This document shows positions 34,304 to 40,329 of a DNA stretch of 48,650 bases, piece after piece. Position 1 is the first letter of the stretch. The number at the start of each line of letters is the position of its first letter. The notes beneath the pieces are model-generated. The model was not told where the DNA came from. It saw nothing but the letters and a program-made list of their open reading frames with translations, and did not search any database. Position numbers and translations under genes: made by a program. Source of the stretch: Chamaesiphon sp. GL140_3_metabinner_129_sub (GTDB lineage: Bacteria > Cyanobacteriota > Cyanobacteriia > Cyanobacteriales > Chamaesiphonaceae); contig JANYIT010000052.1 in the NCBI GenBank assembly GCA_025358725.1, positions 1 through 48,650 of the forward strand, written 5' to 3'.

Positions 34304-35152
34304 TTAAAATTCATAGTCAGGGTTCCCAACTTGAAAAACGCTCAACCCTAGATTACGCCACATTCTACATACCTTTGGTCGATCGTCAATTACCCCAATT
34401 ACATTGTATCGATCGCGGATATGAAAATAGTATAATTCTGATTTGAGAATATCATCAGGACGCTGATCGTTAGCCGGACGCATGAATAGATCTTTGTAGT
34501 TAATACTGTGCTGTTTTAACCAGGCGATCGTCAAATCGGCACAAACACTCGATCGACCAGATAAAAGAATAATATGGGTATCTTGCCCCAATTTCTCGAC
34601 GATCTTCGCCACTGCTGGATTGAGAGCATCTTCATTGACTCGATCCCAAGCAAAAGGATGACGAGTATTGTTAATCGCCAGAGTACCATCAATATCTACT
34701 AGGTAACAATTGGGAAGTTGAGGATCGATTGCTGGGGTTGAATCTGGTCGATCTAAATACTCATAATACATCTGCTCAATTACTTGCTGTCCGACTGAAT
34801 TCGATCGCACCAAATCACGACGGATACACTCAGCCAACGAAACAGTTGTAAAGTCTTGAACAACAAGTTCAGCCTGATATTTTGTCGCTAATTCAGTTGC
34901 GCGGCGATGATGAACTGGATTGAGATTGGTATCCGACCAAATCACCGAATAACCTTGCTCAAAGTAATATTCTGTTAACAAATCACGAACTTTAATAATC
35001 CGTTTTTCGCGTTTATTTGTACTGCCAAGTTGTAATCTAAGATCGTCTTTACAGAGATTGGCCGTTTCTGGATGTTTTTGGATGTACTCTTTTGCCCAGG
35101 TTGTTTTACCACTAGCGGGTAAGCCTTTGGTGAGGATTAGTTTGAGAGACAT
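34304..35152 (-). CDS. T4 Pnkp-like polynucleotide 5'-kinase / 3'-phosphatase
   Basis: P-loop GLPASGKTTWA, KDDLRLQ, SDTNLNP; HAD DIDGTLA, LLSGRSS, VIGVIDDRPKVCRMWRNLGLSVFQV. Confidence 0.9.
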   Translation of the reverse strand: MSLKLILTKGLPASGKTTWAKEYIQKHPETANLCKDDLRLQLGSTNKREKRIIKVRDLLTEYYFEQGYSVIWSDTNLNPVHHRRATELATKYQAELVVQDFTTVSLAECIRRDLVRSNSVGQQVIEQMYYEYLDRPDSTPAIDPQLPNCYLVDIDGTLAINNTRHPFAWDRVNEDALNPAVAKIVEKLGQDTHIILLSGRSSVCADLTIAWLKQHSINYKDLFMRPANDQRPDDILKSELYYFHIRDRYNVIGVIDDRPKVCRMWRNLGLSVFQVGNPDYEF

Positions 35153-35160
35153 AACTTATG

Positions 35161-35270
35161 AGGGAATAGGGAATAGGGATTAGGGGTGAAGAGTTTGAAT
35201 TGGGATCTCATCTTGATGAAAAACAAGATATTTAGTATTTCTTTCTCTATTCCCTACTCCCTGTCCCCTA
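35161..35270. repeat. Facing heptamer repeats (GGGAATA-type) around the rnl-pnkp intergenic region
   Basis: agggaatagggaatagggattagggg (35161-35186) versus ctattccctactccctgtccccta (35247-35270). Confidence 0.65.
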
Positions 35271-36312
35271 GTTGAAACGGACGTTGATAGCCTGGTTTGA
35301 TGAGTTTCCAGATTACTTGTTGATAATCTCTACCATCCAACATCAGAAATAAAACACCAGGATATTTTTGAGTTTGAAAATACATCGCAGTTTGCCTTCT
35401 ATCACCTAGATCTTTGAAGGCTCTCTGACATTCAATTTCAATCTCTTGGTATTTAGTTTCTAGTTCTAGCTTGGTATCTTTCACCCAGTTGTAGAATTCA
35501 TCAGGAACAGAATCGAGAAACTGTGCTAGATTTTGATTTTGGCTGAGACATTCCCAAATATCTTTAGCTTGAACTCTCGTAATAATCCGGTGGAGCCGAA
35601 CATAATCAGCTAGTTTGTATTTGAGTCGAAAACCATTCGGCCATTTGAGAATAAACCCTTCATGGTTATGTAATTCGGCCTCTGTTTCGTCAATCGATTT
35701 TAGCCATTCAGGCAGAGTCGTAACTGGATAAGTTTCGGCTCGATCGATCCAATTTACGGCTGTATGATCTAGTTCTGCGCCTGTCTGAGTATTGACTGCG
35801 GCTAATAAGACTAATCGCTGGGCAGAGCCATAGTCTACAACAATCCGATTGCTGGGATAAATGATTTCAAATAAATAGGTATACGCTCGATCTAGCTGCT
35901 CAATCTCAGATTGATAATTAGCTAATAATACCCGTGCCATTTGTGCTTGATCTGAAGTAAAACTGCCCCGTGAAGCGACTTCCCATTGTCCTTGGTAGTG
36001 AAACAGGATAATCAACGATCCATCTAGCTTCTCGTAGATATTTGGTACACCATCAGGCAGCAAACCCTGATATTCACTCAGATTAAAAAACTTGGGTAAT
36101 GGTCTGGCGATCAGTTGATAATGGTTATCTAGCACCAAGCCCCGACAGCACAATGTTGCATCCACCCAATAGCGATCGAATTGAGCCTTCGCTGTATAGT
36201 TATAAATCGTCAGCGGTAAACTAGGGTGAGTTTGGCTCGTAATATAACCCTGTTCAATCAGTGTCGGTAATGTCTGCGGGTCAAATGGTAAATTAGTCAT
36301 ACGATCGATCAT
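35254..36312 (-). CDS. T4 Rnl1-like RNA ligase
   Basis: Nucleotidyltransferase motif I YEKLDGSL; CCRGLVLDN; RPLPKFFNLSEY; FEIIYPSNRIVVDYG; motif IV EGFILKW; motif V RLKYKLADYVRLH. Confidence 0.9.
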   Translation of the reverse strand: MIDRMTNLPFDPQTLPTLIEQGYITSQTHPSLPLTIYNYTAKAQFDRYWVDATLCCRGLVLDNHYQLIARPLPKFFNLSEYQGLLPDGVPNIYEKLDGSLIILFHYQGQWEVASRGSFTSDQAQMARVLLANYQSEIEQLDRAYTYLFEIIYPSNRIVVDYGSAQRLVLLAAVNTQTGAELDHTAVNWIDRAETYPVTTLPEWLKSIDETEAELHNHEGFILKWPNGFRLKYKLADYVRLHRIITRVQAKDIWECLSQNQNLAQFLDSVPDEFYNWVKDTKLELETKYQEIEIECQRAFKDLGDRRQTAMYFQTQKYPGVLFLMLDGRDYQQVIWKLIKPGYQRPFQLGDRE

Positions 36313-39483: not shown

Positions 39484-40329
39484 CTAACTGTAGACTACTT
39501 CCCACTCAGTTCGAGTCAATCTAATTTGAGCTAGAGCCACAATTGTGGGGATAATCCGCCCATAATTAGTCGAAATTGATCTCCAGCCGAGATCTGCAAA
39601 AAACCAGCCCCACATAGCTGGTCCTAAAATGGTGAAAACCCCACGTACGGCTACCTGCTGGGTTGCTGACATCACCATGCCGCGTTTTGCCATATAGAGC
39701 GCGATATAACTTTGCAGTTGACTAGTAGCAGCAATTCCGCCTCGAATTAGGGTTTGTTTGGCAACTTCATAACTGGCAAAGTGGAAAGCAAATTGGCGAG
39801 CAATTTGATGAAGAATTAATGGTTTGAGTACTGAACTAATCGCGATCGCGCTACTACCTTTTAAAATTAGTTTAATCGGATCATGCTGAATATGTGCGGG
39901 CAAAGGTTGGTCAAAGCGGGTACTAGCCAGAGATTTCTGGACTCTAACTGTCAGCGCATTTTGGTCGCCAGCAGGCAACTTGTGCCAACTTTTGCCCATT
40001 AAGTATAAGAAAACTTCTGCTTCCAAATCTGTGGTGCTGAGTTGATTAGAATAAGAAATTTTGAGATATCGACACACCTGCACCAATGCTTGGCGGTAAC
40101 TAACCCCCTGAGTCCGTCCTTGTAAGACAGTCATCCCATCGGCGGCTAGAAATCGAAATCGATCCTCGATCGCATCTAACCAACTGTCTCGATCCTGACT
40201 CTGAATCTCCACTAGATTGGGGGTACGAACATAGTCTAATGGGTTGAACTTACGGCTAAAGAGAATCTTGGTTAATTGCTGTAATTCGTCTTCGGTAGCC
40301 AATTCTAAAGCCGTTCGTAACTCATCCAA
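39484..40329 (-). CDS. YaaW/UPF0174-like protein
   Basis: DELRTALELATEDELQQLTKILF; helical body; C-terminal IPTIVALAQIRL. Confidence 0.55.
   Translation of the reverse strand: MDELRTALELATEDELQQLTKILFSRKFNPLDYVRTPNLVEIQSQDRDSWLDAIEDRFRFLAADGMTVLQGRTQGVSYRQALVQVCRYLKISYSNQLSTTDLEAEVFLYLMGKSWHKLPAGDQNALTVRVQKSLASTRFDQPLPAHIQHDPIKLILKGSSAIAISSVLKPLILHQIARQFAFHFASYEVAKQTLIRGGIAATSQLQSYIALYMAKRGMVMSATQQVAVRGVFTILGPAMWGWFFADLGWRSISTNYGRIIPTIVALAQIRLTRTEWEVVYS

Follow-up and report, generated by a model that had tools for sequence, protein, structure and literature searches.

A T4-like pair of RNA ligase and end-healing enzyme genes on cyanobacterial chromosomes and its putative role in RNA repair

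The ligase and Pnkp genes of a Chamaesiphon contig

The window, by which we mean the whole stretch of DNA that was analyzed, is one contig (C145, 48650 bp) from a fragmented Chamaesiphon assembly that is 92.6% complete and 5.6% contaminated. Two genes on its minus strand, read in the first-pass annotation as a T4-like RNA ligase of 352 aa and a Pnkp-type end-healing enzyme of 282 aa, proved to be real ORFs with exactly those lengths, positions, and orientation (Table 1). The ligase gene lies upstream of the Pnkp gene, and in the gap between them we predicted neither a terminator-like site nor a minus-strand promoter-like site. The inverted repeat in this gap, built of GGGAATA/GGGAGTA heptamers, gives a stem of -37.9 kcal/mol (z -4.0), and its motif GGGAATAGGGA was found nowhere else within the window. 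The neighboring genes encode TPR, MoxR-type ATPase, DUF4350, and DUF4129 proteins, and no phage genes were recognized among them. Since the MoxR-DUF4350-DUF4129 neighborhood recurs in other Chamaesiphon genomes, we consider the contig native. An ORF adjoining the DUF4129, DUF4350, and MoxR-type genes (window 39484-40329, minus strand) is weakly similar to JukA in PADLOC (42.7 bits) and has no Pfam match, and a related protein occupies the same place in locus L003.

Table 1 Features of the ligase-Pnkp locus, in window coordinates
Feature	Position	Strand	Description
T4-Pnkp-type end-healing enzyme	34304..35152	-	N-terminal P-loop 5'-OH kinase, C-terminal HAD 3'-phosphatase / 2',3'-cyclic phosphatase (predicted)
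Intergenic stretch	35153..35253	-	101 bp, inverted repeat of GGGAATA-type heptamers
T4-Rnl1-type ATP-dependent RNA ligase	35254..36312	-	Adenylyltransferase domain and helical C-terminal domain (predicted by family, residues, and fold)

The ligase matched PHROG 562 (T4 RnlA, E 2.6e-68) and Pfam RNA_lig_T4_1 (59.5 bits, cut-off 28.3), and Pnkp matched PHROG 505 (T4 polynucleotide kinase, E 3.7e-85) and Pfam HAD_PNKP (154.4 bits, cut-off 27.6), values that exclude chance for both ORFs. Against NCBIfam TIGR02308, the T4-RnlA equivalog, the ligase scored 79.8 bits, far under the cut-off of 242; judged by these scores, it is a member of the wider Rnl1 family outside that equivalog. As the ligases of other Chamaesiphon begin at an internal Met (MTNLP..., window 36300), the true protein probably starts there and comprises 348 aa. 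Its closest relatives, 84-90% identical, are almost all Chamaesiphon records, including C. polymorphus CCALA 037.

T4 Rnl1 (RnlA/gp63; 2c5u) is the top PDB relative of the ligase by sequence, with 25% identity in a full-length alignment. The KLDGS, EGFILKW, RLKYKLADY, KFFNL, and YPSNRIV motifs on which the initial assignment had been based are each present in the ORF. Residues kept with T4 Rnl1 comprise K95xDGS of motif I, E149 of motif III, E218 of motif IV, and K231/K233 of motif V, together with R57 and K74, and all of these are invariant among 44 relatives. When an AlphaFold2 model of the ligase (pLDDT 88.7) was searched against the PDB with Foldseek, T4 Rnl1 supplied the top three matches (E 1.2e-17 to 5.5e-16), followed by the fungal tRNA ligase Trl1 and archaeal RNA ligases, while DNA ligases mostly gave E of about 1e-3 or worse. 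The structure search thus placed the protein with T4 Rnl1, as the motifs had suggested, and with neither DNA ligases nor capping enzymes. The match to 5tt6/2c5u (E 1.2e-17) extended over about 373 columns with a TM of about 0.6 and an rmsd of 11.7, which indicates that the domains match those of Rnl1 but sit differently. The two ligases share a helical C-terminal domain, but that of the window ligase is only weakly alike in sequence, shorter, and marked by a conserved VPDEFYNWVK motif of its own. In T4 Rnl1, it is the C-terminal domain that confers tRNA specificity.

The likeness of the second protein to T4 Pnkp (PseT; 1ltq), its top PDB sequence relative, spans residues 4-280 and amounts to 33% identity over the whole length. 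It carries the SDTNLNP and DIDGTLA motifs first noted in it and has the T4 domain order, a P-loop kinase followed by a DxDGT HAD phosphatase. Kept with T4 are G10-K16-T18 of the P-loop, D36, R39, R112, R116, D153xD155GT, S198GR200, K237, D256, and D257, so that the comparison revealed no loss of catalytic residues in either protein of the pair. The arrangement of the genes differs, in that the window Pnkp is host-encoded beside its ligase, whereas in T4 a distance of 1.4 kb, occupied by four genes, separates pseT from rnlA. Neither protein matched a PADLOC defense-system model, and a defense-system assignment of the pair was dropped.

Distribution, co-occurrence and selection in cyanobacteria

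We surveyed 386 cyanobacterial genomes from across the phylum, counting HAD_PNKP at >140 bits. RNA_lig_T4_1 was present in 17 genomes and HAD_PNKP in 15; each gene is rare (about 4%), and both occurred together in 14 genomes of 8 genera. By genus, this co-occurrence gave a Fisher p of 5e-11, a value to be taken as a guide only since genera are not fully independent. The exceptions were two genomes with an over-threshold Rnl1 and no Pnkp and one with Pnkp and no Rnl1. In the first of these (G070) the ligase gene is broken, and in the second (G368) an intact Rnl1, found without a T4-type Pnkp, is part of a kinase-calcineurin phosphatase-Rnl1 fusion; in the third (G282), Pnkp stands alone and our search found no ligase. 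The Rnl1 match of G258 fell under the family cut-off. The fusion protein of G368 (L078 7693-9855) is 720 aa long, with the ligase as its C-terminal part.

In this survey, linkage and co-occurrence of the ligase with Pnkp proved to be conserved, though linkage is common rather than universal. In most pair genomes the ligase lies directly upstream of Pnkp on one strand, at a spacing of -4 to 315 bp, and this order recurs in unrelated neighborhoods, in Bacteroidota, and in an actinophage. One genome (G127) has the pair in reversed order among many short same-strand ORFs in a prophage-like region. By contrast with the linked loci, three Chamaesiphon and several Pseudanabaena genomes carry ligase and Pnkp on different contigs with distinct neighbors, and both genes are kept. 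Each of the seven Chamaesiphon genomes seen had the ligase, and in several it lay beside the same MoxR gene. Between Chamaesiphon species, dN/dS was mostly 0.05-0.11 for both genes (0.028 in one saturated comparison), and both are therefore under strong purifying selection. The pair is a kept chromosomal gene pair and no local accident. Both families, Rnl1 and Pnkp, are classical, and this kind of system is known; the most informative feature is the co-retention of the two genes despite unlinking. In a single case (L002 7878-8649), a nucleotidyltransferase/HEPN pair of toxin-antitoxin-like type lies directly downstream of the ligase, in the spot where other Chamaesiphon carry the kinase.

Relatives in other bacteria and phages

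Ligases of the same Rnl1 group were found in 6 of 248 sampled Bacteroidota. Pnkp lies directly downstream in three of these loci and about 3.5 kb off in two more, and three sampled Bacteroidota have the ligase and lack HAD_PNKP. In two loci (L148 and L149), the genes between Rnl1 and Pnkp encode Hen1 and a PNKP_ligase-family ligase, and hence the Rnl1 ligase sits directly upstream of a Hen1-Rnl-Pnkp operon, whose genes are those of an RNA repair complex that has been reconstituted (PMC4411300). The window pair resembles such Pnkp1-Rnl-Hen1 or Pnkp-Hen1 systems in joining end-healing and sealing on a chromosome and in a Pnkp HAD domain related to that of Pnkp1 (4xrp); it differs from them in its Rnl1-type ligase and in having neither a Hen1 methyltransferase nor a PNKP_ligase-type ligase among its neighbors. 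Beside Rnl1/Pnkp in three Bacteroidota we observed related uncharacterized proteins of about 244-256 aa (L148 5520-7028 and L149 7760-9262, with two paralogues each, and L152 5544-6211, where the protein is split into two ORFs); those of them that were scanned matched no Pfam family over its cut-off. A related ligase of Rnl1 type lies beside rtcR and RtcB on Rhizobium plasmids, with an RNA-binding protein also encoded there in L126 4923-10813.

Actinophages carry similar pairs. Seahorse has the ligase-then-Pnkp order with a 4-bp overlap, and the pairs of Seahorse and of MindFlayer and its relatives share the gene order as well as 37-40% (ligase) and 36-41% (kinase) identity with the window pair; these are phage genomes, however, in which the pair has a different function for its owner (counter-defense). 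In a Streptomyces phage, related ligase and kinase genes lie amid tRNA genes, at a distance of 0.8 kb from each other. Of the phage kinases, the one closest to the window Pnkp (45%) is encoded on contig MW202692 (L128 2398-4897), adjacent to RlaP and an RNA_ligase-family (PF09414) ligase. According to PMC7824862, which cites Burroughs and Aravind 2016, the joint occurrence of RNA ligases and healing enzymes in phages has already been surveyed. In the library searched, we found no paper on an Rnl1-Pnkp pair in cyanobacteria and none holding both "Chamaesiphon" and "RNA ligase".

In our trees, the Chamaesiphon ligase groups with those of Alkalinema, Pseudanabaena, Bacteroidota, and many phages. 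A single clade of all main-group chromosomal ligases gave a p-AU of 0.38, by which it is not rejected and not shown either. A second, far-diverged Rnl1 group (G099 and relatives) adjoins Pnkps that fall together with the Pseudanabaena and Saprospiraceae ones, so that one kind of Pnkp accompanies two diverged Rnl1 groups. This suggests replacement of the ligase beside a retained healer, a reading made tentative by the long branches.

A putative healing-and-sealing pathway and its alternatives

The best-known examples of RNA healing and sealing are those of phage T4 and of bacterial systems linked to Hen1. In T4, Pnkp and Rnl1 jointly heal and seal tRNA cut by the PrrC anticodon nuclease; that system is phage-encoded and directed against a host nuclease, whereas the window pair is on a bacterial contig. 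By analogy, the pair very probably mends and rejoins cut RNA in the T4 manner, and we regard it as likely that the two enzymes form a healing-and-sealing pathway for RNA breaks with 2',3'-cyclic phosphate and 5'-OH ends, with tRNA as the likeliest substrate. A metal-independent endoribonuclease would cut the RNA to leave these ends, the HAD domain of Pnkp would take off the 3' phosphate(s) to give a 3'-OH, and its kinase domain would phosphorylate the 5'-OH. The ligase, self-adenylated on Lys95 with ATP, would then transfer AMP to the 5' phosphate and seal the break. The likeliest target would be tRNA whose anticodon loop has been cleaved by a toxin- or phage-triggered nuclease. We infer the reactions of both enzymes from those of their T4 counterparts, and likewise infer the tRNA substrate and the trigger; the domains, catalytic residues, fold match, co-occurrence, recurrent linkage, and purifying selection are established above. 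The choice of tRNA follows the precedent of phage T4 (PMC3400036) and the company that relatives keep (Hen1, RlaP, tRNA genes). The first-pass proposal that the pair mends host tRNA or other RNA broken by a nuclease stands as the best, though still conjectural, reading.

When about 30 loci were clustered by neighborhood, neither a nuclease nor a regulator proved to be a conserved neighbor of the pair; with only ligase and Pnkp shared across the lineages, a nuclease partner of this kind was rejected. PrrC/RloC-type AAA_13 and HepT likewise had no match in the Chamaesiphon assembly (92.6% complete), and both were rejected as triggers in this genome. Five PemK/MazF matches over cut-off are present in it, and cleavage by MazF-type toxins yields 2',3'-cyclic phosphate and 5'-OH ends, which Pnkp heals. 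It is conceivable, if somewhat doubtful, that the pair serves host RNA repair after the cell's own toxins or stress, with no phage involved, which is a version of our best explanation differing in trigger alone. The five homologues are candidate sources of RNA breaks; MazF is common, however, many bacteria have homologues without the pair, no linkage was seen, and nothing ties them to it. RtcB, also encoded in this genome, seals the same RNA ends without healing and would compete for those healed by Pnkp. Its presence is in keeping with a need to repair toxin-cut RNA, and it also means that the Rnl1-Pnkp pathway may be specialized for something else.

Returning to repair of cut RNA by the pair, we tentatively suggest that it may be a host-owned, standing tRNA/RNA repair system of phage-type parts, with which certain cyanobacteria would survive ribotoxin damage that is phage-triggered or self-inflicted; ligase and healer would be co-selected even when unlinked, the Rnl1 subgroup having been swapped at least once. 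An ancient phage origin of the pair is likely. That it is recent phage or prophage cargo, a counter-defense cassette on a host contig without host function, we consider unlikely. Phage ligases are the nearest non-cellular relatives of the ligase, Seahorse shares the gene order, and the pair of G127 sits in a prophage-like run of ORFs, but no phage genes were recognized beside the window pair, and the presence of the ligase throughout the Chamaesiphon seen, its recurrent MoxR neighbor, and the low dN/dS make absence of a host function not likely.

A role in RNA processing or circularization instead of damage repair, yielding circular RNAs or joined processed transcripts, is improbable. A passage of PMC9014305 describes an archaeal ATP-dependent RNA ligase that circularizes C/D box sRNAs, but that enzyme belongs to another ligase family. 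Moreover, 5'-P/3'-OH ends need no dedicated end-healing partner, and a patchy distribution in about 4% of genomes misfits a housekeeping role. DNA repair by the kinase/phosphatase and ligase is very improbable. DNA ends are substrates of T4-type Pnkp as well, but in the fold search T4 Rnl1 and other RNA ligases matched the ligase at E 1e-17 to 1e-5, far better than DNA ligases did, and relatives adjoin Hen1, RlaP, and RtcB/rtcR genes.

A T4-like pair on bacterial chromosomes, with both genes kept even when unlinked, suggests that cyanobacterial hosts face some form of RNA damage, and Chamaesiphon polymorphus and Pseudanabaena offer compact, culturable test cases in which the cut RNA and the agent that cuts it can be sought. 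RlaP nucleotidyltransferase was considered as a third co-occurring component and rejected. Matches at E 1e-38 or better, which we counted as strong, occur in 30 of the 386 genomes, seven of them pair genomes, and as just 2 of the 8 pair genera (g1, g9) have such matches, a partnership is not supported by genus. According to a passage of PMC7824862, RlaP is predicted to refill ends ahead of ligation. The Chamaesiphon genome itself encodes an RlaP-family nucleotidyltransferase (L163 6474-7277, on G000:C50; 288 bits), which is unlinked to the pair.
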